From Panopea generosa (taxonomy: Eukaryota > Mollusca > Bivalvia > Adapedonta > Hiatellidae): a stretch of DNA of 64,000 bases. The translations under genes were made by a program, and so were the position numbers. The notes below the pieces were generated by a model. That model saw only the letters and a program-made list of their open reading frames with translations, searched no databases and had not been told where the DNA came from. Of the stretch, positions 31,500 through 59,776 are shown piece after piece. The stretch covers positions 60,464,457 to 60,528,456 of the forward strand of contig CM055905.1 of NCBI GenBank assembly GCA_029582155.1. Reading direction: 5' to 3'. How positions within the stretch are numbered: position 1 is the first letter of the stretch; each line of letters starts with the position of its first letter.

Positions 31500-33420
31500 A
31501 ACATACGTTCAGACATTATTCCATTGGCTATATATTCAAATTTAAACTAACATACATTCATAATTTTAAATGGCTATGTTGTAAACATGTCAACATTTAA
31601 ACAAACTTACATTTATACATTTTATATGACTATATTGAATATATATTCACAGTTAAACATTTATATGTATATTGCTATGTGACTACATTGCATATAATCA
31701 TATTATTAACGTTTTAACATGTCTTCATTCAGATTTTACCCTATGGCTATATTGAATTTATATTATTAACATTAAACATGCATTAATTCAAACATTACTC
31801 TATGACTATTTTGAAAACATATTATGTATAATTTAACATTCATTCAGACATTATTATATGACTATATTGAATACAGATTATGTACAATTTAACATTCATT
31901 CAGACATTTCTCTGTGGCTATATTGAATACATATTATGTACAATTAAACACGCATTCACTCAGATATTTCTTTATTGACTATATATTTATCAAGTTTAAA
32001 CATGCATTCATTCAGAAATTACTCTATGGCTATGTTGAATAAATATTATATACAATGAGACATGAATGCATTCAGATATTACCCTATGAATAATTTGGTT
32101 ATATATATTATGAACATTAAAACATACATACATTCAGACATTACTCTATGGCTATACTGAATATATAATATAAACGTTTAACTATGCATGCATTCAGACA
32201 CTACTCTAGAGCTATATTGAATATACATTATGTACAATTAAACATGCATATATTCAGACATTACTCTATGGCTATATTGAATATATATTATTTAAGTTGA
32301 AACATGCATACATTCAGACATTAATCTATGGCTATATTGAATATATTACGTACAATTAAACATGCATACATTCAGACATTACACTATGGCTATATTGAAT
32401 ATATATAACGTAAAATTAAACATGTATACATTCAGACATTACTCTATGGCTATATTGAATATATATTATGTACAATTAAACATGCATACGTTCAGACATG
32501 ACTCTATGGCTATATTGAATATACATTATGTACAATTAAACATGCATACGTTCAAACATGACTCTATGGCTATATTTTATTTAGATTACGTACAATCAAA
32601 CATGCATATAATCAGACATTACTCTATGGCTATATTGAATATATATTATGTACAATTAAACATGCATACATTCAGACATTACTCTATGGTTATATTGAAT
32701 ATATATTACGTATAATTAAACATGCATACATTCAGACATTACTCTATGGCTATATTGAATATATATAACGTACAATTAAACATGCATACATTCAGACATT
32801 ATTTATGGCTATATTGAATATATATATTACGTACATTTAAACATGCATACATTCAGACATTACTTTATGGCTATATTGAATATATATTACGTACAATTAA
32901 ACATGCATACATTCAGACATTACTCTATGGCTATATTGAATATATATTACGTACAATTAAACATGCATACATTCAGACATTACTCTATGGCTATATTGAA
33001 TATATATTATGTACAATTAAACATTCATACATTCAGACATTACTCTATGGTATATTGAATATATATTACGTACATTAAACATGAATACATTCAGACATTA
33101 CTCTATGGCTATATTGAATAAATATTACGTACAATTAAACATGCATACATTCAGACATTACTATATGGCTTTATTGAATATATATTATGTACAATTAAAC
33201 ATGCATACATTCAGACATTACTCTATGGCTATATTGAATATATATTACGTACATTAAACATGCATACATTCAGACATTACTCTATGGCTATATTGAATAT
33301 AATATTATATTATTCACGTTTAAACATACATACATCAGACATTACTCTATGGCTATATTTAATATATATCAATAACGTTTAAACATACATACATTAAGAC
33401 ATTACTCTATTTAGACATTC
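31500..33420. repeat. 60-bp minisatellite, about 30 units
   Basis: The unit contains CATTCAGACATTACTCTATG, GCTATATTGAATATATATTA and CGTACAATTAAACATGCATA. Units left of about 32080 are strongly diverged and those at 32340-33300 nearly identical, so recent turnover is at the right. The His/Met/Tyr open frames across it are artefacts of the period. It starts about 390 bp beyond the stop codon of the synthase gene. Confidence 0.93.
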
Positions 33421-33806: not shown

Positions 33807-33922
33807 CTATGTAAACAGTCCAGTACTTTGTATAGCGGTGACCCAGTCATCCATGTTTTGACGTTCTGGTGTTTTCAGGATGATCCACCTTTTGTCTGTC
33901 TTCATCAATATTGCGTACAAGG
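33807..33922 (-). CDS. PKS exon 8: C-terminal half of PH domain and stop
   Basis: Encodes SLYAILMKTDKRWIILKTPE and RQNMDDWVTAIQSTGLFT, then TAG. The last helix, with Trp in DDWVTAI, is the hallmark C-terminal helix of PH domains. Acceptor TTTCAG. Confidence 0.86.
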
Positions 33923-36900
33923 CTGAAAAATACCATAATTTTATATATGCCAGATAGGAGGAAGGATAGTATCATAGGAATATAATTATATTTTGATAAT
34001 ATTGGATAAGGTGTCATTTTAAGTACATTAAATAGTATATATGAGAACCTATTATATTGTTGAGAGTAAAGTCAATACTTGATATATGTGCTGTGAGCTG
34101 GAATTGAACTCGCGACCTCAGCAATTAATTGGGTCCGCTAGATAGTAATGTTGGAAAAGCCCCATTTAAGCACGTTGATTGGTTAGTTGCTCCAACTGAA
34201 AGTTTGGATGGCATCACAGTTCGGTAAACGTATATTTGCTATGAATTGTGGGACAGGCATAGAATTTCCTGCTTTTTCATTGGTGGTTAATAGACCTGAT
34301 TCAGGAGATATCAGGTTCTGGGATAGTCTTATTCTACATTATATTTCAATAAATCTGAAGAGTTGTATGTAAGGGGATGATAAAACCATTACTTAATCAC
34401 ATCACTATTCAATAGTCTTTTGAATTTATAGTGATATTTCCTAAGAACATGTATTGCCTATTCAAAATAACGTTAACATTTGCATATCTTTTGATCCTGT
34501 CATTTAATTATAACTATCAATATGATTTCTTAATGTTGAGATAAGGTATACAAAATTACACATGAGATAATGGAAGTTTTTTTACGCGAAATGTAGGCAA
34601 ATATGACCTATTGGAGTTACATATATAAGGAGGATACATGCTGTATTGTTTAACCCCCCAACATTCACTGCCAGGGTAGTAAATATTTGTAAAAGGAGAC
34701 TATCAAATTACAACGCTACACTAGGCTATCTACTGATGGTGAATTAACACAGATCCATGTGTGCAGGGTGCATCTTTCTCGAATATTAATATTTTGGCAG
34801 TTGGAGTTAAAAAAATAATTTCAAAGTGCATATATCAAACACCATTTGGAAAAAAACTATTACCAATAATATAGCAGAATGCAACATCATAACAAAAACA
34901 GTACATTGATGACTGTGAAAAAGGGTTCTTTGATTTAAATCATCTACTGAATTATACAAAAACCTTACCCAGAGCCACCTTGCGGCTTTTATATGACACT
35001 AAGAGCTTTAAGAAATAGTTTCATAATCTTACAGTTAAGGAGTCTTGTTTCTATGCGTCGAACATGGCACATATGTAATATCCGCTTCTGTCCATCAGAA
35101 GTTTTTCCCCACTGCATCACCAGGTGTTTGTTGTCATTTTGAATCAACCTGACATGTACACGATGATCCCATCCTTGTGTCGTCTGCTTCAAGAAGTGAC
35201 CTGTAAGTCGATAAAAAGGCTTTTTTAACGTTTCTCTGTAGTTTGACTAATATATTAGATTAAGCTTGACAGGTAATATTGGGAAGTTTTTTTACCCCAA
35301 AATACCATGAAGATAATTCAGACAATCATCTACATTTGGTCTGAGAATTAAAATCAGACTTAAAACATATATAAAAAAAAGATATATATAGAAAATTAAA
35401 TATATGTAAAAACGATTAAATAAACATTTTTTTTTACTTTCAGAAACAAGAATATTATCAGTTATTATCATAAAATCTTATTACTTACCCATAAAGTTGT
35501 GTTTACAAGAATTGCAGATTTTTATGAGTTTTAGTCTAATTTTAGTATTTGAAAGTTAAATGAATATAGTCCCTGATACAAGAATTATGATAATGCGACC
35601 TAATAAACCTAGTAATTATTTACACTTGTTACTTTACTGATACAGAGCACAAATCTTAAATATATGGAGTTATAAAATATCAGAAAATGATAAAGTGTAT
35701 TTTAAATGGTATTTGACAGAAGTCAAAAGTAAAAAAAGATGTTAACATATATTACTGGATTTGGGACATTACGTAACTGTTGGTAAACCATGTCGTTAAA
35801 AATTACAAACATGAAAATGAATTTCAATTTCATTATTATCTTTTTATTAGTGAAATTGACGTTACTACAATATATTATATAAAAGCTATATTTATAAAAA
35901 ATCACATCGTATCTTTCCCTTCATTATAAATATGTTATCACGAGTTGGATATACACATCACTATGTAATATAATGAATTTCAATCAGAAACGTAGTCTTT
36001 AAATATTTAGAATGAACACTAGAATTAACCGTCTTCCGTGGCCTTGTGGTTAGAGCGTCCGCCTTGGAAGCGGGAGATCGAAGGTTCGAATCCTGGTGGA
36101 AGATTTTGTTGTTTTTTCTGATGGGGCCGGTTGCTCACTCAGCAGCTAGTTAAATTGAGGTTCCGAATGTGTAAGTCAGACGCCTGGCAAGGATAGCTTT
36201 TGGAAACAACATAAAAGTGTTGCACAAGCTGGCTGGCCCTTTCAATAGGGGTGATAAACAACAATCAAACACTTCACTTTTTATATCAGAATATAACTTA
36301 CCTTGCTTTATAACTGTAAATGTAGTGTTTTCCTCCAGTACACTATTGTGGAGTACCACATCTTCGTGTTCAGTATTCGAATCATCTGTCTCTTGCATTA
36401 CATTGTGACGTGAACTGTTAGCTTCATTTTGTCTGTTTATGGTCGATATTTGTTGTAATGATATCGGATGTCTTTTGTCCCCAATTTCATTTGGATGCCT
36501 TGTGTTATGGGGTGCATGGAGTTCATTTCGAAGATCGACAATTTGTTTGGATGTTTCTTGCATACATTTGTCTATCAATTTCATTATTTGCTTTGGAATT
36601 CCATACCCTTGCTTTGGTTTACAGATTTTGGAGTTAAATCCAAATTCAAATGAAATTCTTTTCGATGTGACGTCATGCTGGATGAACAGAAACGTTTCAT
36701 ATTTCATCCTTGAAGTCCAGACATCCTTCAGTTCTACTTCATAATCTTGACTCTGTGTAATCAAATCATTTAGTGACTGCATATCGTTAATGGCAATCCA
36801 ATGTCTCCCAAGGTTGTTTTTCAAGCTGTTATCTTTGATTTCATCTTGAATGAGTTTAAATGGGTATGCGCTGTGTTGTATCGCTTCTAAAATTGTATCC

Positions 36901-39900
36901 GAATTTTCCTGTAAGAATCGTGCCAATGACATTTTGTTTATGAACCTTGCTACCAGAGGAACAGCATTCACACACCTAGCCACCGTCCCGTGCAACTTAT
37001 GTATATGCATTCGCATGTCTACAGATGTCATAATCGGCACTGTTTCCCTATTTGTTTCCAGATGCAGAAACAATTGGTAAACCGATGCTAAGAAATGGAA
37101 CACGCTTATTCCATTTGCGCGTGTATAACGTACCATGCGCGTAACCAGTTCTTCTGGCATTTCTTCATTGAATGTGATGCAGAAGTTTTCTTGAATGTCG
37201 TCAAGTTTGTTTCTAAGTGAAACAGGATAAATCGTACCCTCCATGTACTCTTTCCAAAACAGTCGAAGGCTTGATAGCTGTGGTTGTAATGTGTGTTTAA
37301 CCAATGCAGGAATATCAATCTCGAAGCGTTTTGGTGGCATATCTGTCTTGTTATGGTAGGCGAGTATAGTCAGCTGTAAATCTTTGAAAATGATAGATGT
37401 AGACATCATATCTGTGGCAATTGCATGCAGTATTATTCTCAAACGTGTTCTGTTCTTGTGGTAGGCAATTTGGAACTTGACTGGCCACTCCCTTTCAAGA
37501 TGAAACACAACTTTTAAGTTTCTGTCTACGACAATGCTTTCAAACGGTACTTCCTGCAAATCTATATGCGTCTCTGCAGGATTCAGGAGTACTACTTTAA
37601 CATCTGTTGTGACGCTGTCCGTGGTATATCGTTTTCTAAGCTCTGGATTCATATTCATAACGTGCTCAAGTATTTTAATCCAGTCCTCTGTTTGAAGTAT
37701 CGATTTCATTTCTATATCAACTATGCGTATTAAAGTTGGATCATCTTTTCTCTTCAAGTACTTATCCATTACGCTTTGTTGCATAAAAGTAATTTCTCTT
37801 GATAAGAAAGAATTATTTTCAGTGCTTTCTTGAACCAATGATTGTTCACCATGTGTTACTTTCCCCGCCAAAATATGTACAATGGTTGAAATCGTCGTTT
37901 GATCTGACATTAAAGTCATGAATGGTATTTTACACTGAAGTGCATCATCTATCGTATTTGAAAAACTCATTGCCGCCATAGAATCGATCCCTAGACTAAC
38001 TAAAGAGGTAGAGTCTTCAAGCGAATCTTTTGTAGCAACAAACACTTCGCAAATTGTCGTTTTGACATAGTCGGTCAGTCGCTCTTTCACTTCCGTTATA
38101 TCTTTGCCAGTGAAGTCACTATTGCCAAGTGTATTTTTGTTTACTTCAGACGCATTTGTTTTACGAAATTTGACTTGAATGAGGGTGTCGTATTTTGAGA
38201 TTTGCGCTGCCAAATTCATATTTGATGTGACTATATCCCAGTCAATGTTTGCATATACGGTCTGAGTGTCGTTGGTGAGTAGAGATTGGATAAAAAACGA
38301 TCTTATCTCCGCAGCAGACAGATGTGAAAACCCTTTCTGTTTCAGTTTGGCCTCTACGTTTACATCCATCACAGCCATGCCAACAGATAACGCTCCCCAA
38401 TTGATAGTTTGAGCCGGAAGTCCCTTTGACCGTCTGTAAAAGGCCAATGTATCCATAAAACTGTTTCCTGCTGCGTAGTTGCATTGCCCAACGTTGCCAA
38501 TGATGGAAACAATTGAGGAATGCAATACAAAGTAGTCGAGCTGAAACTGTTTTGACCGCGTGTGTAAATTCCAAGCCCCTTTAATTTTTGGTAACATCAC
38601 TTTCCTTATATTCTCTTCTGATTGATTAATCAAAAATGAATCTGCAAGGACTCCTGCTCCGTGAAAGATACCTTTTACTGGCACACCTTTCAACATTCTT
38701 TTGATTTCTTTCAATCCTTGATCGAGTGACTGAGAATTTGTAACATCAACCTGTACGGCTGTAACAACAATGTTATACTTTTGCATGACATTTCTAATAT
38801 CTGTTTGCTTACTTGAAGTTGGAACACTCCTTGACAGGGTGACAATATACCCAGCACCCATACTAGCTATCAACTGCAGTAGTTCCCATCCTAATCCATG
38901 CAAACCGCCAACTAAAACATAACATGCTTCCTTTTGAAAGAGACTACTTTGCTCCACCCGAAGGGGTATACTGTCATTCGCTATGTCGGTTTCTATATCT
39001 ATCTGCTCCATTGGTAACTCAAAATTGAACCGATTCCTGAGACATTTTTCCATTTTTTCCTGACTGTCCTGTGTGTCAATATTTTCTATCAACGTCCGGA
39101 CTATTGGTATCGACGATTCCAATACACTGAGATTAAACAAATGACAAGTAACTAATATCCGCATAAATACGTGTCCGAATTTGTGATTTATACAGGCCTG
39201 GAGTGCATCCGGGATCAATGTTTTGAGAGAGACTATACGTTTGAGACCTGGATTTCTTTGAATAAGAGTTTGAATATGTACTTGCTTTGCAGATGTTAAT
39301 ATCAAAGCTGCTGTCACATCAGTGCACACGTGTGTAAGATTATCATTTTCCAAATCCGTTGACGTAATGTATATCATCTTGCATGCTTTTTTTTGGAACA
39401 CCTTTTTCATAAAAATATGTCTGAAGTCATTTTCTTTGCACAACGTATCTAAAACAATAACATGCGCTTTGTCCGGGACTTCTTTGATCATGTGGTAAAG
39501 TATATTGCCGAGTATGAGTGAACCTGGTTTATATGCTTTGCTATTTCCGCTGAATATACATTCTTCTGGGATACTGACTAATGAAGCTGCATCAACTGGA
39601 CAACAGAAGCAAATGTCATTTCCTTTGTTTGATGTTTTATCTATAATTGTTCCCGTGCCTTCAATTGCTATAATTTGGCTTCCAAAACGATTGGACTTTT
39701 CTGACCATATATCGGTGTACTGCCCAACATCCGTTGTCGGAGGGTACACGGAGTCATGATGCTTGACAATTGATTTCAACATAACTGTGTGCAGCGGTAA
39801 TTTCAGCTTGTGATGTTCCTTCGTTTCTGATGACTCGCCTTTTGCCAGCTGAAAAAACGGCTGTAAAACCTTGTAAGCACATTCAGACTTCAGATGTGCA

Positions 39901-42900
39901 TTGTAGTCCAGGTTCATTTTGAGAGTTCTATACATGGGGCGCGACCTTTGGTTGACATTTAGTTTCGCACCGAATACACTCGATCTTGATACGCATAGTT
40001 CTGCCTGGTCACGCAATCCACCCGTTAAAATACATCGCAACAGTTTGTAATTTAAACCGCGAGGGTTTATATCTACTAAACGAATGTCTGCATAAATTCC
40101 TTCATGCATTGCTGAACGAACCATTCCCCATAATTCTGATCCACTCAGATTTAGTGATTTAGAATCTTTTTCTGATATGTATTGTGTACATTCTGTTACT
40201 ACGTAGAGTGGTAATGATACTTTGTTCGTTGCCAAAATCTGTAACAGTTTCTTCAGGTTTATAAACCTCTCTACCGCTGCATCGAATAGCATGACTTCGT
40301 CGTCATGATCGACAGTGCTTTTACCGACGCAAAATAGAATAGCTTCATATTTCTCTAAAAATACTGATGTCAGTACATTTCCATCGACTTCATGCAGCAT
40401 GTCAACTTCTGAAATATTTTGAAGTTTCTCAATCCACATGTTCTTCTTTTGCAAAGACAATGCTAACAATTTTGTTCCATTTGTAACTAGATCTGTTGTA
40501 TCCACATTAACATTGATCCAGTCGTATTCATAAGCCTTACTTTTTATATCAGCTGATCGACCCAAAGTTCTAGTATGGAAATTGTTTACCTCTACGATCA
40601 CAGAACCTGTTGGCGACAAAAGCAATGCGTTATACTCATCACCTGTTTCAGACTTGGATATTCGACGAGCGTAACCGAACATTCTCGTCTGTGGTGGCCT
40701 GTTTATCACAATGGAGCCGGCTCCCTTTGGCATGGCTAAGCTGGAATTTGAAACAGCGAATATTCCAAACGTTTGAAAAAGAGCATCGATGATGGCTGGA
40801 TGAAAATGTGTTTTGACAAATTCTTCAGCTACGGAATCTGGAACACATATTTCTACTAAGCATTCCGAGTGCGCTGTCCATGATCTTTCAATCAAATTAA
40901 GACTTGTTCCATATTGAAATTCAAGTTTTTCCAAACAAGCATATGATTCTTTCTTATCTTTTATAATCTTACATCTCTCACGCAATTCGTCGATATCCAT
41001 CTCTGGTCTTTCAGGAATATTTCTCAAACTTACCTTTCCGGTACTCAGTGTCCTTGTGCTACTTTTAGTTTCAAAAAGAAAAGATGTTTCTTCCATTTCA
41101 GTTGTACTGACAGCAAGTGCATATTCATTTCCAATTGATGGCATAAATGGATTTTCGAACTCAATAGATACCATCAGGTCATAAACTGGTTTCTGAATGC
41201 ATTCTTGGCCGATATGAAATCCCATTTCAACATATGTAGCACCTGGTACTAGAATATTACCTGAAAGGAAATGATCGTAAACGAATGGAGTTGAACTTGC
41301 GCCAATCAAAAGTTGAAAACCCGGGTTTCCTTTGTTTTCAGTAAAGCGTCTGACAAACATATGCGAATCTGCACTGCTGTCAACAGTACCTGCTAAATAT
41401 AGATTTACCCTGTCAGCAAGGTAAAGACTCTTTGATTTGTTGAACGCATACTTTGGAATTGGTGTCACCTTTTGAATATTGGTGTAAATGTTTTTCCAAA
41501 TAATCGGAATCTCCGTTTCGTAAAGCTCCGAAACCGTTGAGTACACGCTTTGTAGTTCTTTATTGACATTAAGCGAAGGCAAGCACAATCTTTCAGTTTC
41601 TTCATCTAGAATGTTTCCAATATGTGCACGTAAAACTGGTCTCGGTCCTATCTCTATGATTATGTTTTGAGAGTTTCTCTGAATTGCTTTCTGTATCCCT
41701 TGCATAAACAAAACTGGTTTCCTGACATTGTCCGCCCAGTAAGTTCCTGCTTTGAAAAGGGACTGTGTAGCAACATCACCCGTTACGGTCGAAATGTGCC
41801 GTGTGGTATGACCGGACCCTGTGCTTAGGTTGCGTATTTGCTTAACTATTTCACTTCTACAGTTTTCCACTTGGGGACTGTGGTATGCGCATTGAACATT
41901 CAACCTTTTGATAAATAGTGGTCTGTTTTTGATAGTTTGACTCTTGTCTTGTTCTGACTTTCGTTTTTCTAGATCGTTTTCGATAGAATCTATGTCTTCT
42001 GCATTGCCAGAAATAGTACAGGCTGTTGGACTGCTGTAAACCGCTACGGAGACAGTTTGTTGGTAAGCCTTACATAACGCCTCCACTTTCGAGACCTCCA
42101 AATTCATCACAACCAGCATTGCGCCGCCTGTTTGTTCTGCTAGAATCTTTGATCGTTGGTATATCACATTCACGCTATCTTCCAATGACAAATGTCCCGA
42201 AGCATATGCGGCAGCTACTTCTCCTACTGACTGACCAACCACTACGTCAGGCTGTACTCCCCAGTGTTTCCATACATTCGTAAGGGCTACTTGAACGGCA
42301 AAGATAGCAATATGATTCAGAAACGGATCTTCATAGTTCGTATTTGCCATGAATTTGTCTCTCATCTTCCAGCCAGTGAGCGGGGAAAGGTACGTATCGA
42401 TACTCTCAACGGTTTCTCTGAACTTGTCTACTTTTGACATCATTTCCATGCACATTCCCGGCCATGTTGTTCCTACGCCGCAGTATACAAATACAATATT
42501 AATGTTGTTTTTCCCCTTTTTAGGTTTTACTTTTGTAATTTTTGTCTTAATTTGTTGCAAAAACTCTTCCTTTTTTCTTCCTATTAGACCAACTCTGTTT
42601 GTAAAATGATCTCGATGACAGCATGATGTATAGCAAACGTCTTCTATATCTAATGTTGCAGCTTGAAGGTCTCTGTAAAATGTTTCGAGATTTATTTTAA
42701 GAGATTGCGCATCAAGTGCAGAAATACAAGCAATTTGCCAATCGTCTGTGCTTTTTGGCAAATTGATTTGATTGTTGCATCCATTTATTATAGCATGGCA
42801 GTTTGATCCGCCAAATCCGAAAGAATTAAGGCATGCAATTCTACCACCGGCCTCGTTTTGTTTCCAGTCACTTACATCCAACGCTATATCTAAACCGTAT

Positions 42901-45900
42901 CTTTCAAATAAAATCTTCTTGTTTACGTTTGACTTATTTTTCTTGACGTGTAAAGATGGTACTATCTTTCCATGTTTTATCATGAGTAGGACTTTTACAA
43001 GTCCAGCTATGCCCGCGGCAGACTCTGTGTGACCTATGTTCGATTTTACAGAACCAACTAGTAATGGCGCATCATAGTGTCGGTCTGCTCGGTATTTGGA
43101 AAAAAACATACCTAATGCATTGACTTCAGTTGGATCTCCTATAGGTGTACCTGTTCCTACAAAACAAAACATGCAACGATGTGTGATCATGAGTGATAAT
43201 TACATACGCAGCATATTGTAATGCCAAATATACCATTTGAATTGAAAATATAAAACATATACAGTATAATCATTGTTACGAAATATTAATTGATGTTATT
43301 AAGATGATTTCCTTGCAGTGATGATGTCAGCAACATGGAATTTAAACATTCCATATCACGGGTAACGCCCTTAATGTTACATTGCTTTAACGTTAAAACA
43401 TGGCAAGTGTATCGCTATTGAATTGTGTCAATTGCATTTCTTTGAAAACAAACTTTGTAGAGAATTTGTCGAAGACGTACCATGTGCTTCAATATATTCG
43501 ACGTGACCCGGATTAATGCGACTTTTACTGTAAATGCTTTCTAGGAGTTGCCTCTGTTGTTCACCAGATGGCGCTGTGATTGGCTGCATCGTACGTCCGT
43601 CTTGGTTAGTGCCAGTCTCAATCGTTGCCCATATTGTATTGCCATCATTTACAGCCTTATAAGTAGACAATATACTTAGTCACTATTATAATCTATTTAC
43701 ACATATAACTTAAAATGGCTTTTCACACATTATATATACCCTATATATATATTGCTTATATCTTACACGAACCAGAAAACATATAATAAAAGATTAGTTG
43801 ATTTTTTTAAAACCCATTTTAAAAATATGAGTGCAAGTTCAATAAAAAATTACATGTAGTAAGAGACATTATATTGGAAAACATGATATCTTTTGAACGG
43901 TAATCAAAATTTCGCTCATAAACGTTATATAGTTTCTCGTGGGGGACACTTTTAGATGTCAGTAAGTGCAATTTGCCTCAAATACAAGAGGTGTATGCAC
44001 CATTTACCACGAATAAGACCGATGTGTGTATCATGAACCTAATTTTGTAGCAACCGTGAGTGGAATCTACCGCGGCCGAGAGATCTAGGGTCTGTCTCAT
44101 GTCCCACCGCTGAGAACCTTGTTTCGAGCCTAAATCGGTCCATAACATTATGTGAAAAGATTGCCAGTTACTTTAAGAAGGACGGTGGTTTCATTTTGAG
44201 GGATTCCTCCACCAAAAAATCTGGTTGAGGTATATCTCAACCAAAAAATCTGGATATGTCATACTAGTATTAAATAATATTTTTTATTGTTTTAAATGCA
44301 GTTTAACGCAATAAACAAATACTTATGAGTGTTATTCACCCAAATTCCTGAGTGCGTCCACTTCCCATGATACTTATTAAACTTTACCTTTAAGTTAAAC
44401 GTGAACAGAAGATATAAATTGCCGGGATGTATGTTTTCGATAAGAGGCCTCTTATCAATATCTACGAAACATGCAATTTAAATCATGTTGATGTTTAACG
44501 CATCTCTTTAACACTTTCATATAGACGCCTTTTGACACCTAATATAGAAGGCTTTTGACACATAATATAGTAGGCTTTTACATAAGTGAGTGAATTATGT
44601 TAATATTAACTGACAGAGTGGAAAACAGTGCAGGAAGTGTTCAGATTGCTCTTGACGAGCAATCTGAACTCTTCGTGCACTGTTTTCAAAGGTCTTCTGT
44701 GATTGGTGCGGAAAAACGCGTATCTATGGAGTAAAGGGTTAACCTTAGTGATATTTGTCAAATGAAAAGTAGCTTAATCTCGTCGTATGATAAACAAGGT
44801 TTATGTATCATCAATTTAAAAAAGATGTTAATATTAAAACTACCACCCACCACTGCAAAGTCGAAAGCATAAGCAAAGAGAAACGATTCGTCATTTTCTG
44901 AACATGAAATAATGGTTACAATAGTATACAATTTTTTTACTAAAACTTGAACTAAACACTGCTGGTGTGACTTTATTTATATTTATTCGTGTACCGGCAA
45001 TGTCGGGTCAAAATGGATAGAGTTATGGCCCTTAATAGATTAAAATATTACGTTTGTCTTATAAAAACTCTATAGCAATATTAAAATTCATCGGATAAGG
45101 ACTTGATTAAAATGTTATTGCTTATGAAAGGTTGGGCGAGTTTCTGAATTGGTCGATAATCCTTTAATTTATTGATAATTGCTGATGTTTGCCTAGTAAA
45201 CTCTGATTCTTGAACAGATCTAGTCTGGAACATTTGCGACGCTTGCTTTTCTAAAAGACAAACGTCTTGATAATTTCGACCGAGAATAAAAGTAAATCAT
45301 TTTTAGCGTCAATAGATAACGTTTTTCATTGGTTGATTCAAACCATCGGGCTACCTCTGCTTCCTCGGCGAATTCCATAATATTTCAAAGAGTTTCATTC
45401 GGATGCTATTTCTATACTCATTAAATTTATGTTATTAGATATTTTTTATGACAAAGATCTTGTACAAGATAACTGCCTCTACTTCCGTCCGAATAAAAAT
45501 CTTTAAACTTTTCCCATAATATTACAATTGCAGAGGTGTGTTTGTTTCATTCAAATAGATCTGCCTTTCAGATTCGAACGTTTTTTTTCTGCACAACTTG
45601 TCAATGCGTTTGTCTTTTAGAAAAGCAAGCGTCGCTATGATCAAGACTAGAACCGGTCATATTGTACCGGAATAAATAGTCGAATGTGATACAGGTCCTA
45701 TTGGGCGTTTTTTATTTTTTTTTTATACTGGAGGTATTTATGTTTTGGCTCATTTTATATCAAACAGCTATTTCCAAATAAAAATGTTCATACCGACTTC
45801 GCTCGTTGCAAAATAACAACTCCACAACCTTCTCCACGTGCATAGCCGTCCGCAGTGTCACAGAAGGTCTGGCATTGCCCCGTGGGTGACATCATTTTGT

Positions 45901-48900
45901 TCTTGCACAGAGCAAAAAAGGTATTAGGATTAAGGATGCTGCTAACGCCACCACAAATAGCCATGTCACAATCGCCTGAAATGGAAAAATAGATAATACG
46001 AAATATATAATTCAATAAAGTCAACATTATATATTAGATACATATTGTGAGAGATATCTAGAACAAATGTTATTAACAGAAATATATATATAAACATGTA
46101 TACTTTACTTGAAATCAGCATTTCGGCTCATTCTGCTTATCTCCACAATTAATTTAACATCCTTCGCATTCCCTCCCCCAAAATATACATTTATATATTT
46201 GTGTGAAACGAAAAATAAAAGAAAAACAAAATTAAAAGGAACCATCAGGTATACTTTTAAATATACTTGCAATCCTTTTATATTTTGTCTAACATATGTA
46301 TCATTTATGTAACCGGGGTTGGAAGGTATTCGGTAATAACAATTCCATGGTTCTTGTTATAATTGCAGATTTATTACAGTATACTCAGGGTCAAAGAGCC
46401 TGTAATACATAACATAACATTCAGATACACATTAAAACAAAAAGAACATTTACACAATACTTCACAATACAAATTACAATATTTCATTATTAATGCGGCT
46501 CTTTTATATAAATAAAAAAACAATATCACAGATCTTACCAGGATATTCTGATCAAATAAATAAAACTTTGCAGTTTTATTATTTCTGTCTGGAGTGTGAC
46601 AAAATATACTATTAATATATTTAGTGTCTTTGTTGATGTCTAGAGGAAGGATGCTGTAGATTGTTAGTTTGGGGATAAGGGTATGCATGCAGTGCTGGGT
46701 GTGGCCTAACTTGCATCACTCACTTGTCAATCAATGTCACTCCCAAACTAAATATTAACTCACATCGCTCACTTGCCAATCTGTCATGCCCAAGCTAACT
46801 CAGTTCACAATATATACAAACAAAACAACATGTACAATAAACCAGTTTGGGTTTACTATTTTGTACTATACAAGTAGTTAATTGTTTTCCAATACTTTAC
46901 AGTTAGGATGTACCTGTATGACTTTCATGTATAGATAATTATAGGTTAAGACAGTGTTGTCTCCCTTGAACCATAAAATGCTGGAACTATAAAAAAAAAT
47001 GAATTAGTAACACTGGGTGACATTTATAACAAAGAAAATTTAATTTTATAAACATCATTACTATGTTATTTTTAAGAAAGGGTTACCTTTATTTTGATGA
47101 ACCTGCCTTTACAGTTGAATTTTGATCTTTGTTCTACATAAAATTTCCATTGAAACGGCCTATAATTATCTATTCATGAAATACATAATAGCCGACATAT
47201 TAACCAGTTGTTTTTTTAAAGCGCAGTGACATCCGTTAGATTTTTAAAAAATATTCCATCAAAGGCTCTAAAACATACCCGCCTGTTAAAATCAAATACA
47301 AATCAAAGCTTCAACACCAGTGATACATCTTATTACGGTATATGCTATGTCAGCTTTGTTTTACTACAATCCAGGGGTCGTGAGTTCGAATCCCCCGCCT
47401 GACAACAGTGTCTGTGATGATTGATATACGACATTGTGTCTCATTATCATTCGTCTCTCACCACTGACTCAAGTGGGAAAGTTATCAGTTACTTGCGGAG
47501 ATGGAGGGTACTCGAGTATTGGTTAATCCCAGGAAACAGTGGTTAGGTTAACTTATCGTCTGATAGCCCTCGATGGCATAAAAATGACGCTAAATATTCA
47601 ATCAATCAACCATTGTTTTACTCATCTGTAGCAATAAACCACAATATCAGCGAACCATTTTGAAAATAGTCCAAAACTTATTAAATATATTTTTAACCTT
47701 ATAATTGTATCACATTCAGTATGGCGCATCTAAAGCATATCAACTAAATACTATATTTATATGAGCTTTATTTTGAGACTGTGATCTACATTAAAATGCG
47801 TTACCTGATCGTATAGCTTGGCAGCCTAAATGTATAGCCACAAGTGACGAGGAACATGCGGTGTCCAGAACTAGACATGGACCTTGCAAGTCGAATACGT
47901 ATGACACTCTTGCAGCAATGATTGTAGTAGACATTCCTGTTGCGCTATAGCTTGTCATTTCGGTCTTAGGGTCGTTCGATAGAACTTTAAAGTCGTCATT
48001 CATGCAGCCTTTATATCAATAAAATATCAACTGTTATGAATATTAATTAGCAGATATATGAAAACTGATATTTTACATGTTATTATTTACAACTAGTTAA
48101 TGCTATAGTTAGTCAGTTCATCTTATGTGTATTTATTTCATAAATATAACACGTCATGTTGTTATCCTTTGTTAAGCGTGTGAAACCAAAATGAAATCAC
48201 ATGACTCATTTAATATGCCATAAAATATGTTGCACTTAAAAGCGGGAAAAAAATTTCAGTCTAACCTAGACACGTAGCCCAAGTTAGAAATTCGATTTCA
48301 ATATATTATTTTGACAAGTTAAAATAAATATCCTTTTGACAATACGGAGTCACATAAAGTTTTTGAACTTGAACCTATGACCTTAGCGGCGCGAGGTGAG
48401 TAATCTTGAGACGGCGCCTTAGACCACTCGGAGAATCTCCTCAATGTTATTCAAAATGTGATATATAAAATATTTTTGTTAAAGGTTATTCTCAACTTTG
48501 CATTTAATAATCTTGTTTTCTTTTTTTACCAAAAACGTACCTATATAGACTCCGGTGTTAGACCCCTTTAGGCGTTCTCGTGTTATACCACCATCTTCCA
48601 TCGCCATATGAACACATTCTAAAACGTATCTCTGCTGGGGGTCAATTCTCGATGTTTCATTGTCACTAATACCAAACAAACGATTGTCCCACTCATCGTG
48701 TCTGCAGCATGTACAATATATGACATGTTGCCAATGGTTATTTTTGAAACATAAGATTATTGTAAGAACTATAATTTCTGTTTGTTTCCTATGATTCACT
48801 ATGAAAATACATGTACCAATGTCGAATCTTATGCCAGTGATTTCTGTTCACTTTGTTGTAAACTTTGAACTTGTATAACATAATATTGTTTAGCATGTTC

Positions 48901-51900
48901 TTTTACTAAATTCAAATGTATTTTATTTTTCGGCATCTGCTCATTCAAGTTAATATGTATCTTCAAGTAAACCACGCGGTTGCACATTTGATGAAGATGG
49001 TATGTAAAAAGTTAAAATTGATATTTTTGTTCATTAAAATAAATTTTCACAAAACTACCATCGGAACATATGAACAGCATAAACATCAATAAATAAATGT
49101 CTATTTTAACATAACATAATGGCGACATGTAAAAAACGTACATACAGACATAGCTTAAGAATACGGCTATGAAATAATGTTAGTATTAAATATCAATTGT
49201 TAGTAAAAATAATCATATAAATAGTAACGATCAAATAATTTATAATACTTGCAATAAGTTTTAATAGCGCAATATCGCCTCACACCTGTAATAAAATCAT
49301 GTATTGCGTTATCTGGATTGTAACGCCTGTTACTTATATCATGTTTCACGTGCGTTTATTGTTAAATTGATACTCAATTAAATGGATAGTAATAAAAGGT
49401 AATTATAAAGCAAGTAACTATTAAGGAAACATTCCAGTCTGTTATCATTAGTTCAGATGCTGATTCAGACGTGGGAGGCTTCTTCAATCTTTTTACACCG
49501 TTAATGGTAATACTATAATATTTTAACTACAGTTTGCTTTCAAATGCACGTTCACACGATAATTTTGATACAACAATAAACATTGTAACAAGTAAACTAT
49601 CCGATATTTTCTACAAATCAGCATACAAAACATTCCCGTCACGTAAAAGTTGTAACCAGCCGTCTGTAAACAAGGTCAATACTAGTAATCATGTAAACAC
49701 CAATAGTAAATTCCGCACTGACCGACCTTGGTTCGGACGAGACTGTCGTATAAAAAGAAATATGTATAACAAGGCCAAAAGTATTTATTTATGTGACCGG
49801 TCCCACTCAAACAAAACTAAACTAAATAAGGCGAGCAAGGTTTACAAAAAAACAATGAATTTTTACATAACTATATATAAATGTAAAAATGCTCACAAAT
49901 TAAGAACTATGCATAACGCTGACCCCAAATCTTACTGGAAGTACTTTAAAAGTTTAAATTTAAGTTCTGAAAATAAAGCACCTGAATTTTACGATTTCTT
50001 TAAAACCTCCAGTTGTGTAAATGGATATGAAAATATAAACATATCGCCTGATATAGCTAACAACAATGCAATATTAAACTCCCCTTTTGTTGAAAGTGAA
50101 ATTAATAAAATGATTATGAAATGCAATAATGGTAAAACCTCTAGTTTGTCAGACGAAATATGTAATGAATATATTAAAGAAACGCGACACTTATTCTTAC
50201 CATTATATACCAAACTGTTCAACCTAATATTTGATTCAGGACTTGTACCAGAACACTGGACAACTGGTTACTTAATTCCAATTTACAAAGGTAAAGGTTC
50301 ACCTCTAGATCCCACGAATTACCGCCCAATTACTATATTAAGTTGTCTGGGGAAATTATTTACAGCTGTCCTTAACGAGCGACTCACAAAGTTTAGTAAT
50401 CAACACCAAATAATACACCAAAATCAAGCTGGATTTAGGAAAAGCTACTCTACGACCGACCACGTATTTACTTTAAACTACTTAATTAACTTAATGAAAT
50501 CTCAAAAACAGAAGTTGTTCGTTGTGTACGTTGACTTTTCACGTTGTTTTGATAACATCCCAAGGGCCGAGTTTTTTCCAAATTAGTAAATAATGGAGTA
50601 GATGGAAAATTTATAAGAATCATTCGTAATATATACAACAATATAAAATCATGTGTACAATCTCGCGGTAAGCTCTCTGCATTTTATGTCCCAAATTGTG
50701 GTATTTTACAAGGAGAAAGCATTTCTCCGTTACTCTTTTCCTTTTATTTGAATGACCTCAATGATTATTTATCACACCTACAAAATCCAGGCATCACTTT
50801 AGACTATACGACCAACGAAACAACAACGTACCTTCAAATACTGGTAATGCTCTTCGCAGATGATACTATAATACTGGCCCGAAATCAATCTGACTTTCAA
50901 AAATGCTTACGTGATTTTGAAAGTTATTGTTCACTATGGAAACTAAAAATTAATACTTCAAAAACCAAAGTTATGATTTTTGGATCTAACCGAAGATCCT
51001 GGCCTCGATTCAATTTTATGCTTAACAATAGAAGACTAGAAATTGTGGACAATTATAAATATCTTGGTGTATATTTCACCCCATTAGGAAGCGTCAACAA
51101 AACCAAAAAACATCTTGCCGAACAAGCCAATTAAGCCATGCATCTTCTGTATAAACGAATCAATAATTTAGATTTACCTATAGATCTCCAACTTAAATTG
51201 TTTGACCACACAATAATGTCTATCCTAACTTACTCCTGTGAAGTATGGGGCATTGAAGAAAATATAGATTGCCTTGAGAGAATCCATTTATCATTTTTGC
51301 GCAGAATCACCAAATCCAGAAAATCCACTCCTGCGTATATGCTGTATGGGGAACTCAACCGATATCCCATTAGAATCACAATTCAAGATCGAATGATTAA
51401 TTATTGGAATAAATTAATTTTAGATGATAAAACTAAATACTCTACTTTTGTATATAAGGCAATGCTCCACTCTCCGATCCAATTTAAATGGTTACAAACA
51501 ATAAAATATATACTTAACAGCACAAGAAACACGTTTATGTACGAAAACCAGAATGCAATGCGTACCAAGAACATAAGCAAGACTATTAAGCGAAATTTAT
51601 TGGACCAATTTATTCAAACATGGTCAGAGTCTATGTCAATTTCAAATAAAGGGAAACATTATTGTGTCTTTAAGGAACATGTGCAGTTCGAACCTTATCT
51701 TAAATTGATACCTTTGAAAAAAGCGATATCCTTTTGCAGACTTAGAACTATGAATATAAAACTTCCTGTTGAAACAGGACGCTGGAATAACACCCCTTTT
51801 GAAGAAAGATACTGTACTTTATGCGAGAATAGAGATTTGGGTGATCGTTACCACTATCTACCTGTCTGCTATTACTTTAAAGCAACACATCCACGTTTGA

Positions 51901-53145
51901 ACTTTTAAAAAAAAAATTTGATTGAGTTATGAGCACATTTCCCATACAAACATATGATCAATTAGCTGTATATGAGCATATAAACACAATCCCGAACAAA
52001 ATGATGCCCAAATTATAATGCGTGACTAACACTTTATAAAACAAGCGTGTAACTCACCCGAGTAAAAAAAAATTGTCAAAATGACTTTCAAGGCAGGTAA
52101 AGTACACTATGCACTAAAACGTGAAGTTTTTTTAATACGACTCGCATAATTCAATTTGAAGCCAAGTTGGAATCCTCGGCAATTTAAAAATAATTTATAA
52201 AGCGTTTGTCATGCTTTATAATTTGAACATCTTTTTTTATAATTCTAAAGCGTTCTGGATAGTGTTTGTTAGCACATATACAGCTCACTGACCATATATT
52301 TATGTATGGAAAATGTGCTCACAACTCAATTGAAATATTTTTTAAAAAAATTTAAACGTGGATGTGTTGCTTTAATGATCAACGATTAAAGTACATCAAC
52401 AAATATTTCCGTACGCATCCAAATATATTGAAATATCGGGAACTATTGCAATCAGACAACCCTAGAGTTTTAAATAAATTGAGTGAATTTGCCGAGCATC
52501 TTATTAAAACTTTCAAATAGACTTACTTTAACTGAATTTCGTGTAGCTATTCCCCTGTATTAAAACCACACTTTATCACGATCAAAACACTACACTGCGA
52601 TTTAAAATATACCCCATGAAAAACACCGGTAGTAATTGATTCATCAAATCCAAACAAAAGTCGTAGAATTGTAAACTTCCATAAAATATCCGTCCGTTTA
52701 TTTCTTCAAATTATCTGTTATTTTAATCAATCGGCGGTTTTATTTGGTCATAATCCTTACTTGTTTAAGTCACATGGTTTCCTTTTGTCAACTATTTTCT
52801 CGTTTATAAATTTCATTCACAAAATACTGATAGTAAACTGTGATCCTCGTGTATTCAATCCCTATTTACACCCACGTCGAGGCCAACAAATTATAGGCAT
52901 TTGGTGTACGTGTGTTTTTTGTGTGGACTTTGTACCCGCTTGAAGTATTAAACTTGATACATTTAATTACTAATGATTTAACAAGAAAATCTCACTGTTC
53001 CCGCCGGGATTTTACAATATCACATTTGTTTATGAAATGTTTGTGTGAATTCTTCCGATACCCTCATGTGATTATTTATGTTGTAGCCATCATTTGCTGT
53101 TGCGATTCATGATCGTCGATGCAATAAAGGTTGTTGTTGTTGGTT

Positions 53146-53177
<32 letters not shown>

Positions 53178-53976
53178 GGTGGTGGTTAATTGGACAGTTC
53201 AGTCTTGTATGTTGAACAAAACAAAAATTTTTGTTTCAATTAGATACTTGATGTATGTGCAATTACGATTGGTAATGAGCAACAGCAAGTTTTGTAAGGT
53301 AAACAATATGTATGTATAAGCAGCCGTGTTCAATGTTTCAAATAGTTACATCAAACTCAGCTTCTAAAGTGATGACTGCTTACCATTGACGTGACCGTAC
53401 AGTATGTAACGTTAGACGTTTATTGGATCCAATGAATCAGTTCAATATTCAAAACGGCGATTGAACTAAAACGAATTAAATTAAGTAAATTTTAACAATA
53501 AAAGCAAACAACTGGCAAATGTTCCGCATAATTAGCGAGACGTTGAGAAAATCCGAACATTCCTTCATCTACCGCTTTAAACCCACAGCTTATTTATTAA
53601 TTAAAATGATCTTAATCTTTCTTTTCTCTTATGTTGATCTTATTCAGATACAGAATGAAAAGGTCTTTATGATCCCATATTATACACAAACTGTAAAATA
53701 ACCTTATACATTTTGACATTGATTACCATTAAAGAGAATATAATTATTGACAATATATATAGACTCTTACCTCTTCAGAAGACCGGCCTTTTTGACATAT
53801 AGTTTACCAGGCGTTTTCAAATCTTCATCAAACACCGCTTCGTTGTTCCATCTGTCTTTTGGTATATCTACGACATGATTCTCTGCATTGATCAAAACTT
53901 GCCAAAACTCGTCAAGATTTTCTGCACCAGGGAACTTGCACCCAACACCAATTATAGCTATGTCGTCCTCTTCCAT
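33807..53976 (-). CDS. animal-type polyketide synthase with condensation-like and PH tail (8 exons)
   Basis: An iterative type I multienzyme of 2688 residues that should build a carbon chain from malonyl-type units. Eight exons join with canonical borders and consistent phase. Domains (approximate residues): KS 5-430 with Cys174, His309 and His352; AT 525-840 with Ser619 (GQSVGE), Arg644 and His735; DH 915-1200 with His938 (HFLSGNILVP) and Asp1100 (DALFQ); structural KR 1220-1390; degenerate ER about 1440-1600 without a glycine-rich NADPH loop; KR 1715-1950 with GGLHGLG, Ser1857 and Tyr1870; ACP 2000-2075 with Ser2035 (GIDSM); condensation-like domain 2085-2510 with HAIATD instead of HHxxxD; linker; PH domain 2590-2685. 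There is no thioesterase. It resembles animal FAS-like polyketide synthases, but the tail is unusual. The likely product is partly unsaturated; it is otherwise unknown. Confidence 0.92.
34115..34333. mobile_element. MITE family R, copy 4
   Basis: Shares AGTAATGTTGGAAAAGCCCC, GCTATGAATTGTGGGACAGG and GAGATATCAGGTTCTGGGAT with the other copies. The dyad is decayed to ATGGCATCAC, and its end reads ATAGTCTT. No target duplication could be defined. It lies in the last synthase intron. Confidence 0.7.
34658..34999 (-). repeat. dispersed repeat Q, right copy (inverted)
   Basis: Inverted relative to the copy at 28405-28711, diverged with several indels. It ends 33 bp from the exon 7 donor, inside the last synthase intron. 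Confidence 0.7.
35033..35200 (-). CDS. PKS exon 7: N-terminal half of PH domain
   Basis: Encodes HFLKQTTQGWDHRVHVRLIQ, DNKHLVMQWGKTSDGQKRIL and HMCHVRRIETRLLN: a series of beta strands with the Lys/Arg pattern of a PH domain. The acceptor TTACAG and donor GTAAGA give the phase that both flanking exons need. Confidence 0.85.
36030..36104 (+). tRNA. tRNA-like sequence, anticodon loop CTTGGAA (TGG, Pro)
   Basis: GTCTTCC and GGAAGAT form a full 7-bp acceptor stem (one G-T). TCCGC and GCGGG enclose the 7-base loop CTTGGAA. GGTTCGAATCC is a B box, but the outer T-stem pairs fail, so this is more likely a tRNA-derived repeat or pseudogene than a working tRNA. It lies in synthase intron 6 on the opposite strand. 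Confidence 0.4.
36302..43156 (-). CDS. PKS exon 6: end of KS through AT, DH, ER-like, KR, ACP and condensation-like domains
   Basis: A single 6855-bp exon covering residues 310-2594. It begins TGTPIGDPTEVNALG and carries KSNIGHTESAAG (His352). If the donor GTAAGT at 36296-36301 is not used, the frame runs another 50 codons to a stop at 36150. With the donor used, VIKQ is joined to GHFLKQ, the first strand of a PH domain. The residues 2510-2590 linker is polar (Asn, His, Glu, Ser) and probably flexible. Confidence 0.94.
43481..43655 (-). CDS. PKS exon 5: ketosynthase, first catalytic histidine
   Basis: Encodes GTNQDGRTMQPITAPSGEQQ and ends VEYIEAHG, which holds His309. Acceptor ATAAG, donor GTACGT; the split Gly codon is completed by exon 6. 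Confidence 0.93.
44062..44285 (+). mobile_element. tRNA-Leu-type SINE, family 2
   Basis: Degenerate copy: CCGCGGCCGAGAGATCTAGG, TTGTTTCGAGCCTAAATCGG, GCCAGTTACTTTAAGAAGGA, with a small internal duplication of AACCAAAAAATCTGG near 44238. In synthase intron 4. Confidence 0.65.
44508..44742. mobile_element. TTAA-flanked MITE, compact copy
   Basis: 235 bp with TTAA at both ends and terminal CTTTCATATAG against AGTAAAGGGTTAA. It shares GAGTGAATTATGTTAATATT and ACTGACAGAGTGGAAAACAG with the expanded copy at 2085-2618, and has a central palindrome TTCAGATTGCTC-TTGACG-AGCAATCTGAA. In synthase intron 4. Confidence 0.75.
45236..45635. repeat. inverted-repeat element with 29-bp perfect arms
   Basis: GCGACGCTTGCTTTTCTAAA plus AGACAAACG at 45236-45264 is matched exactly by its reverse complement at 45607-45635. 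Outer sequence (CTAGTCTGGAAC against ACTAGAACC) also pairs weakly, so the whole element may be larger. In synthase intron 4. Confidence 0.8.
45794..45975 (-). CDS. PKS exon 4: ketosynthase
   Basis: Encodes DCDMAICGGVSSILNPNTF, MMSPTGQCQTFCDTADGYAR and GEGCGVVILQRAKS, matching the KS segment with FDxxADGYxRGEG; here the first position of that motif is Cys. Acceptor TTTCAG, donor GTATGA. Confidence 0.94.
47355..47612 (+). mobile_element. tRNA-derived SINE, family 1
   Basis: Well-kept body (CAATCCAGGGGTCGTGAGTT, GTGATGATTGATATACGACA, AAGTGGGAAAGTTATCAGTT) ending AATATTCAATCAATCAA; the first part of the tRNA-like head is missing. In synthase intron 3. Confidence 0.78.
47805..48008 (-). CDS. PKS exon 3: ketosynthase active-site cysteine
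   Basis: Contains LDTACSSSLVAIHLG, with the condensing Cys at residue 174. The acceptor is ATAAAG and the donor GTAACG, both used in phase. Confidence 0.94.
48345..48446 (-). mobile_element. tRNA-Leu-derived SINE head, family 2
   Basis: On the minus strand: GGAGATTCTCCGAGTGGTCT, AAGGCGCCGTCTCAAGATTA and the T-arm remnant GGTTCAAGTTC, followed by AAAAACTTTATGTGACTCC; then the copy stops. In synthase intron 2. Confidence 0.65.
48541..48701 (-). CDS. PKS exon 2: ketosynthase
   Basis: Encodes HDEWDNRLFGISDNETSRID, PQQRYVLECVHMAMEDGGI and GSNTGVYI; PQQR and the GVYIG strand are conserved KS features. Acceptor CTGCAG, donor GTACGT. Confidence 0.93.
49525..52520 (+). mobile_element. decayed LINE (non-LTR retrotransposon), 5'-truncated, in PKS intron 1
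   Basis: Reverse transcriptase blocks in order: GYLIPIYKGKGSPLDPTNYR, QAGFRKSYSTTDHVFTL, VVYVDFSRCFDNI, GILQGESISPLLFSFYLNDL, LFADDTIIL and NYKYLGVYF, then a Cys-containing C-terminus (YCTLCENRD-YHYLPVC) and FNDQRLKYINKYFRTHPNIL to a stop at 52518. No endonuclease domain is present, so the 5' end is truncated. It is inactive: a one-base frame change in a T run near 50570, a TAA at 51132, and a 491-bp MITE insertion. The general type is Jockey/CR1-like; I cannot place the clade. It lies on the strand opposite the synthase gene. Confidence 0.88.
51881..52371. mobile_element. MITE with long inverted repeats inside the LINE
   Basis: Terminal AGCAACACATCCACGTTTGA and its inverse, continuing as imperfect inverted repeats for about 150 bp (GAGTTATGAGCACATTTCCC against GGAAAATGTGCTCACAACTC). 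Flanked by TTAA at 51877-51880 and 52372-52375. Removing the insert and one TTAA restores the LINE reading frame through CYYFNDQRLKY, which fixes the borders; a TA duplication is equally compatible. Confidence 0.9.
52521..53770. other. rest of PKS intron 1
   Basis: No gene recognised. The first part may be the LINE 3' UTR. A (GTT)n run at 53128-53180, directly after GCAATAAAG, could be its 3' tail, but no target duplication was found. Confidence 0.35.
53771..53976 (-). CDS. PKS exon 1: start of ketosynthase
   Basis: MEEDDIAIIGVGCKFPGAEN is a textbook ketosynthase N-terminus. The ATG lies two bases inside an acceptor (TTTTAG), so a non-coding first exon further upstream is likely but not located. 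Donor GTAAGA. Confidence 0.92.
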
Positions 53977-54861: not shown

Positions 54862-56665
54862 GTATGTATCAAATAAGTATCGTATAATCAATGAATAATG
54901 TCTTATTCTGTAGAACATTATTAAATACATACTCTTGACTGTTTTAGTATATTGTGTATTAAATTAGCATCGTACAATCAATGAATAGTTTCTTATTCCG
55001 TAGAACATTATTATATAAATACTCTTGACTGTTTTAGTATATTATGCATCAAATAAGTATCGTACAGTCAATGAATAGTTTCTTATTCCGTGGAACATTA
55101 TTATATACATAGTCTTGACTGTTTAAGAATATTATGCATCAAATTAGTATCGTACAATCAATGAATAGTTTCTTATTCTGTAGAACATTATTATATAAAT
55201 ACTCTTGACTGTTTTAGTATATTATGCATCAAATAAGTATCGTACAGTCAATGAATAGTTTCTTATTCCGTGGAACATTATTATATACATAGTCTTGACT
55301 GTTTAAGAATATTATGCATCAAATTAGTATCGTACAATCAATGAATAGTTTCTTATTCTGTAGAATATTATTATATAAATACTCTTGACTGTTTTAGTAT
55401 ATTATGCATCAAATTAGTATCGTTCAATCAATGAATAGTTTCTTATTCCGTAGAACATTATTATATACATACTCTTGACTGTTTTAGTATATTATGCATC
55501 AAATTAGTATCGTACAATCAATGAATAGTTTCTTATTCCGTAGAACAGTATTATATACATACTCTTGACTGTTTTAGTATATTATGCATCAAATTAGTAT
55601 CGTACAATCAATGAATAGTTTCTTATTCCGTAGAACATTATTATATACATACTCTTGACTGTTTTAGTATATTATGCATCAAATTAGTATCGTACAATCA
55701 ATAAATAGTTTCTTATTCCGTAGAACATTATTATAAACATACTCTTGACTGTTTCAGTATATTATGTATCAAATAAGTATCGTACAGTCAATTAATAGTT
55801 TCTTATTTCGTAGAACATTATTATATAAATACTCTTGACTGTTTTAGTATATTATGCATCAAATAAGTATCGTACAGTCAATTAATAGTTTCTTATTCCG
55901 TAGAACATTATTATATAAATACTCTTGACTGTTTTAGTATATTATGTATCAAATAAGTATCGTACACTCAATTAATAGTTTCTTATTCCGTAGAACATTA
56001 TTATAAACATACTCTTGACTGTTTTAGTATATTATGTATCAAATAAGTATCGTACAGTCAATTAATAGTTTCTTATTCCGTAGAAAGTATTATATATAAA
56101 GTCGTGACTGTTTCAGTATATTATGCATCAAATTAGTATCGTACAGTCAATGAATAGTTTCTTATTCCGTAGAACATTATTATATAAATACTCTTGACTG
56201 TTTTAGTATATTATGCATCAAATAAGTATCGTACAGTCAATTAATAGTTTCTTATTCCGTAGAACATTATTATATAAATACTCTTGACTGTTTTAGTATA
56301 TTATGTATCAAATAAGTATCGTACAGTCAATCAATAGTTTCTTATTCCGTAAAAAGTATTATATATAAAGTCGTGACTGTTTTAGAATATTATGTATCAA
56401 ATTAGTATCGTATGATCAATAAATAGTTTCTTATACAATAGAACAGTATTATATACATACTCTTGACTGTTTTAGTATAATTTGTATCAAATTAGTATCG
56501 TACACTCAATGAATAGTTTCTTATACAATAGAACAGTATTACATACATACTCTTGACTGTTTTAGTTTATTATGTATCAATTTAGTATCGTACCATCAAT
56601 GAATAGTTTCTTATTCAATAGAGCATTATTATATAGATACTCTTGACTGTTTCAGTATATTGGCC
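54862..56665. repeat. 90-bp minisatellite, about 20 units, partly 180-bp dimers
   Basis: The unit includes AGTATCGTACAATCAATGAA, TAGTTTCTTATTCCGTAGAA and CATACTCTTGACTGTTTTAG. The stretches 55021-55200 and 55201-55380 are nearly identical to each other but made of two different 90-bp types, so a 180-bp dimer was duplicated. The flanking units are the most diverged. Confidence 0.95.
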
Positions 56666-59622: not shown

Positions 59623-59776
59623 TAAGATATTTTAAAATATAAATGAATGATTCGTAAAGAAATGTCAATCAAGAATCAGATGCATGACAAAAGTCAATTG
59701 AAATATAAATGTACTGCCAGTTTTATAACATCCAAAACCACATTCATAGTATATTTATCTTTTTTTTTAAGGAAAA

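Follow-up and report, generated by a model that had tools for sequence, protein, structure and literature searches.

A predicted polyketide synthase of Panopea generosa with a condensation-type domain lacking its central histidine and a PH-like C-terminal end

What can follow the acyl carrier protein (ACP) in an animal polyketide synthase (PKS) is the question raised by a gene of the bivalve Panopea generosa, located on the minus strand of the 64,000-nucleotide stretch analysed here (the window; assembly GCA_029582155.1, contig CM055905.1, positions 60,464,457 to 60,528,456). A sequence-only reading of this DNA had described one protein of 2688 residues in which ketosynthase (KS), acyltransferase (AT), dehydratase (DH), enoylreductase (ER)-like, ketoreductase (KR) and ACP domains are followed by a condensation-type (C) domain and a lipid-binding pleckstrin homology (PH) domain. 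As judged from the sequence, the catalytic residues of KS, AT, DH, KR and ACP are intact, there is no match to a thioesterase (TE), the C domain has lost its central histidine and the protein has a conserved PH-like end. We consider the gene to encode a real, conserved enzyme with one new part, the PH-like end, and one unexpected loss, that of the histidine, a point missing from the earlier description. The chances are about even, in our estimation, that it is an ER-deficient, iterative and partly reducing type I PKS with a largely non-catalytic docking tail made of the C and PH-like domains.

Independent reconstruction of the gene from splice signals gave the structure that had been proposed, i.e. 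a single gene of eight exons and 2688 codons with a single stop, at the end, and with all seven introns bounded by GT-AG and in phase. Five of these introns interrupt the first 310 residues, within the KS, which is spread over exons 1 (53771..53976, with the start codon and the N-terminal part), 2 (48541..48701), 3 (47805..48008, with the motif DTACSSS and Cys174), 4 (45794..45975) and 5 (43481..43655, with EAHG and His309); the open frames that hold these five exons match KS in Pfam. They are followed by the 6855-base exon 6 (36302..43156), which carries the C-terminus of the KS, the AT, DH, pseudo-KR/ER-like, KR, ACP and C domains and the first PH-like residues, in an open frame of 2349 codons, far beyond chance. 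Exons 7 (35033..35200) and 8 (33807..33922) encode the middle and the end of the PH-like domain, the latter with the stop codon. The start ATG lies 2 bases after an acceptor-like TTTTAG site in the window gene and 3 bases after one in a divergent copy at C1:82.54 Mb (hereafter the C1 paralog), and an untranslated first exon upstream of exon 1 is therefore likely.

The C1 paralog is an intact gene of eight exons (2838 amino acids) that shares all seven intron positions and phases with the window gene and retains the C domain and the PH-like tail. The ten residues named in the earlier reading (Cys174, His309, His352, Ser619, His735, His938, Asp1100, Ser1857, Tyr1870 and Ser2035) are all in place in the rebuilt protein, as are their ten counterparts in C1. 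Identity between both proteins is highest in the KS (70%), followed by AT (52%), KR (51%), DH (45%), the KS-AT linker (39%) and the PH-like domain (38%), with lower values in the C domain (32%), the linker plus ACP (31%), the pseudo-KR/ER region (28%) and the linker between the C and PH-like domains (21%).

The domain search confirmed the catalytic core. In the exon 6 frame, Pfam matches above cut-off were obtained for KR (179 bits; residues 1720-1899, with Ser1857 and Tyr1870; 38388..38927), AT (161.9 bits; residues 531-828, with Ser619 and His735; 41601..42494), the C-terminal part of the KS (79.4 bits), Condensation (69.7 bits), the dehydratase family PS-DH (67 bits; residues 919-1178, with His938 and Asp1100; 40551..41330) and PP-binding (39 bits; the ACP, residues 2005-2070, with Ser2035; 37875..38072). 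Of the domains that had been proposed, only the PH domain, which was covered over nearly its full length, stayed below threshold in this search, and the ER-like one gave no match. With E values up to 1, Pfam revealed neither a thioesterase in the frames of the window protein nor a methyltransferase family in the protein itself, and no AMP-binding domain or second carrier was found in it.

The condensation-type domain occupies residues 2136-2517 (36534..37679), after the PP-binding match, as had been claimed, and its score of 69.7 bits, like that of its C1 counterpart (75.2 bits), is well above the Pfam cut-off of 30.6. Its active-site motif is altered in both. Against L036, a C domain of this genome with the canonical motif (VVHHIIFDGWS), the window protein aligns as ILHAIATDMMS and C1 as YMHSVISDLSG, so that HHxxxDG is replaced by HAIATDM and HSVISDL; a PDB profile alignment gives the same placement of the motif residues. 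The first histidine and the aspartate are kept, while the glycine and the central histidine (alanine at position 2221 of the window protein, serine in C1) are lost. Since the central histidine is gone in both paralogs, ordinary condensation is doubtful, and the loss of the same catalytic position in two proteins that keep the first histidine and the aspartate suggests that the C fold has been retained without ordinary catalysis. Bacterial and archaeal relatives of this domain were looked for and none were found.

The best-surviving alternative, to which we give a lesser chance of roughly one in four, is that the C domain still works as a release enzyme, handing the chain over from the ACP to a small acceptor molecule (an amine, an alcohol or another carrier) by means of the first histidine or of substrate assistance, with the PH-like domain merely positioning it. 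The conservation of the domain and of its two remaining motif residues in both paralogs would agree with such an activity, as would the lack of a TE match, given that some release step is needed, and the role of the central histidine, usually regarded as the catalytic one, is described as debated (PMC8097023). Against this, the residue has been replaced in both paralogs, and by different residues, the identity of the C domains is among the lowest of all domains in the enzyme, and the protein offers no AMP-binding domain or second carrier that Pfam would recognize.

A PH-like domain after the C domain was also borne out, mainly through the C1 paralog. The Pfam PH family (PF00169) matched the window tail with 18.2 bits (E 0.0038) over profile positions 1-102 of 105, and the C1 tail with 15.9 bits (E 0.019) over positions 30-103, the cut-off being 25.1 bits. 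A profile built from both tails was aligned by hhalign with a PH profile, made of six PH domain sequences, with a score of 28.2 over 89 columns (E 1.7e-4 for this single comparison); none of 300 column shuffles reached this score (best 19.75), and the reversed profile gave 8.65. When the whole genome was searched with the C1 tail, allowing E values up to 1, five matches were obtained, three of them C1 itself and the other two the window gene's exon 7 (E 9.9e-5) and exon 8 (E 0.0147), in the right order, and the DNA of exon 7 has a single match in the genome, itself. In both genes the donor of exon 6 is in phase 1 and falls early in the PH-like domain. The spliced tail covers residues 2584-2688 and carries the signature GWDHxVHV...QWGKT...ILMKT. 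We therefore regard the PH-like tail as a real part of the protein, mainly because the paralog tail is conserved.

The earlier reading saw in this domain a lipid-binding module and a sign of product handling at a membrane; in this view it would be a phosphoinositide-binding membrane anchor at which a lipid product is made and delivered. The conserved tails are net basic, with 16 lysines and arginines against 10 aspartates and glutamates in the window protein and 15 against 7 in C1, as such an anchor might require, and the profile alignment resembles PLC-type PH domains from the first strand to the tryptophan of the C-terminal helix. The tail differs from them in staying below the Pfam cut-off and in the basic inositol-phosphate contacts, which in PLC-delta are K30, K32, R37 and R40: when GWDHRVHV of the window protein and GWDHAVHV of C1 are placed opposite SWRRERFY, K30 alone of the four is matched. 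Many PH domains bind proteins, not lipids. Lipid binding was thus not borne out, and with the phosphoinositide-contact residues mostly absent a membrane role becomes one option of several; we see the anchor as unlikely, a little more so than an active C domain. The notion that exons 7 and 8 come from another gene or from chance, the protein then running on from the C domain into the intron and stopping there, fits the sub-threshold PH score, the unspliced exon 6 frame, which continues for about 50 codons beyond the donor, and a broken near-copy at C12:60.29 Mb whose similarity fades some 100 bases short of exon 7, but it is rejected as highly improbable on the C1 paralog, which has the same exons in the same order and phases, 38% identity in the tail and a frame that stops right after the donor (read-through is therefore not conserved), and on the genome-wide search, in which these exons are the sole matches of the C1 tail outside C1.

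Between the DH and the KR lie around 530 residues in which, with E values up to 1, no Pfam match was found in the window protein, nor any PDB sequence match. This is the segment called ER-like in the sequence-only reading, a proposal that retains its position and a weak structural model and has no sequence match to sustain it. A model of the pseudo-KR/ER/KR region predicted from 12 in-genome paralogs had a mean pLDDT of 53; its best Foldseek matches were DH-ER-KR modifying regions of PKSs, with an E value of 8.9e-17, but with a TM-score of 0.26 and an rmsd of 26. No glycine-rich nucleotide-binding motif is visible in the 12-row consensus of the ER-like region, and together with the absent sequence match this led us to reject an active ER as improbable. 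It is likely, if weakly supported, that the interval (residues 1187-1715; 38940..40526) corresponds to a pseudo-KR plus a degenerate ER.

Animal fatty acid synthase (FAS)-like synthases had been taken as the frame of comparison, and they are probably not the nearest kind as far as the KS is concerned. Among the best 60 of 70 matches to PDB chains, in which bit scores are a proxy for the published tree and hidden Markov model test, the KS scored 614 bits with 7zma (over two stretches), 351.2 with CurL, 301.7 with the best FAS chain and 301.5 with LovB, so that the highest-scoring PKS chains lie above the best FAS chain. Several bacterial PKS modules, those of the erythromycin PKS, fall below that FAS chain, and therefore the KS scores only lean to PKS over FAS-like enzymes. 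By the same proxy, and with the same reservation about the bacterial modules, identity as an animal FAS-like PKS (AFPK) is disfavoured. The window gene is like AFPKs such as EcPKS1/2 in being an animal PKS without TE; it differs from them in its sparse introns, AFPKs having a high intron density according to the parts consulted of PMC10764717.

Most likely, on its sequence, the window gene belongs to the kind of mollusc PKSs that carry a C domain. The text consulted of Lin et al. (2024; PMC10764717) describes a mollusc PKS clade with members with and without C domains of the non-ribosomal peptide synthetase (NRPS) type, and with few introns concentrated N-terminally, and the gene agrees with the C-domain members in both features. 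The main text of that article, on which the comparison is based, does not contain the word "pleckstrin", and its section 8 mentions no lost catalytic histidine, two differences from the protein described here. A further parallel is the fungal LovB, which, according to the part of the source consulted (PMC7870829), has an ACP and a CON domain at its end and an ER that does not function, and thus shares with the window protein the order KS-AT-DH, (probably, in the window protein) inactive ER, KR, ACP and C, the C domain being the last in LovB. LovB has an active C-methyltransferase between DH and pseudo-KR and works with a trans-acting ER, whereas the window protein has no methyltransferase match, and its KS is closer in score to CurL than to LovB; nor does the text consulted on LovB mention a PH domain, while here the C domain is followed by a PH-like one. 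With both the LovB order and C domains on mollusc PKSs already published, the design up to the C domain is largely known, and the claim that the arrangement lies outside any described family is restricted to what follows. The open-access literature searched yielded no description of a PKS carrying a PH domain, and the PH-like end looks new.

In the mechanism that we propose, the AT would load malonyl-type units and the KS would extend the chain iteratively, with KR and DH acting and the ER step absent, and the ACP would come to carry a partly reduced chain of the polyene type. Ordinary amide or ester formation would no longer be carried out by the C domain, which together with the PH-like domain would mainly form a platform at the C-terminus, holding the loaded ACP and docking the enzyme on a partner protein or a membrane, where the chain might be released in trans or through self-cyclisation. 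Several results weigh against this interpretation. The PH score is below threshold in both paralogs, and Ribosomal_S10 outscores PH in the same Pfam list for the window tail (20.4 bits, E 0.00064), so that the Pfam PH match is not decisive alone; the hhalign probability for PH is only 49%, no PDB sequence matched the window tail with E values up to 1, and a PDB search with the two-tail profile returned no PH structure and one unrelated lectin (E 0.18). The loss of the ER is deduced from missing matches plus a model of low pLDDT, and the structure model of the C domain, obtained from a two-row alignment, had a mean pLDDT of 33 and was unusable. As the role of the central histidine is debated, the C domain may still act.

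The gene is a member of a large PKS family. Searching the genome (1.47 Gb in 39 contigs) gave 91 exon-level KS matches, and 15 further PKS loci were compared with the window gene on their downstream side. Similarity to the C domain appeared at two of them, the C1 paralog and a broken near-copy at C12:60.30 Mb. In nine of the remaining 13, similarity ends within the ACP region (query positions 2069-2109); in L017 it breaks off 69 bases short of the edge and is absent from the neighbouring L018, in L031 it reaches the edge of the stretch compared, and L033 is fragmentary. In a 12-row tree, rooted at the midpoint and with long branches flagged, the window gene and C1 grouped together with 100/100 support versus ten loci that lack C-domain matches.

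Near-copies of the window gene, both broken by gaps and stops, were located at C12:60.15-60.17 and 60.29-60.30 Mb (L009, L011 and L012); their DNA is 94.4% identical to its coding sequence in one (2242 columns aligned) and 91.5% in the other (6860 columns). In L009, which completes the 13 loci without C-domain similarity, the match ends at position 1056, and the neighbouring L010 shows none. In the comparison with L011, 118 of the 382 substitutions in the longest stretch are synonymous versus 21% expected for random changes, which may be taken as a weak signal of constraint. Six neighbouring PKS paralogs are found on C10:14.50-14.81 Mb, and more on C1, C3, C4, C6 and C12. In addition, C11:48.71-49.07 Mb (L001-L007 and L036) and C3:30.52 Mb (L008 and L037) contain frames of up to 3223 codons with KS, condensation, AMP-binding and carrier domains. 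Those on C11, with repeated units and one condensation domain with a canonical HHxxxDG, are by their predicted domains an NRPS-PKS megasynthase array in the assembly; for one C domain of this array, bacterial and archaeal genomes scanned for near matches yielded no relative.

Other elements of the window surround or interrupt the gene. Intron 1 contains, on the plus strand and thus opposite the gene, a reverse-transcriptase frame (RVT_1, E 1.9e-13) at 49519-50583, the segment covered by the scan, with further frames running to 51908; it is probably an insertion like those of long interspersed nuclear elements. Tandem arrays of 60-base and 90-base units are present on both sides of the gene (31726-33410 and 54863-56661). 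A long tandem array of 27- and 84-base units at 4386-7757, with a GC skew of about -0.75, contains an open frame of 950 codons that is probably a repeat and not a gene, and a 300-codon frame on the plus strand at 59771-60670 has a borderline match to the NPC1 middle luminal domain (27.1 bits, with a cut-off of 27).

The same text on the mollusc clade states that for most mollusc AFPKs lacking a TE the offloading mechanism is unknown (PMC10764717), and the same question applies to the TE-less PKS described here. Its conserved terminal module, a C domain without the central histidine plus a PH-like domain, is a testable candidate for how an animal polyketide might be released or placed, and provides a sequence signature by which other genomes can be screened. 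That an animal PKS lineage made an NRPS-type condensation domain non-catalytic and fused a PH domain to it, forming a docking tail that would deliver the ACP-bound product to a membrane or a partner, is a tentative idea to which we assign somewhat less than an even chance; if true, it would mean that a PKS can be controlled via an adaptor domain of the signalling type.

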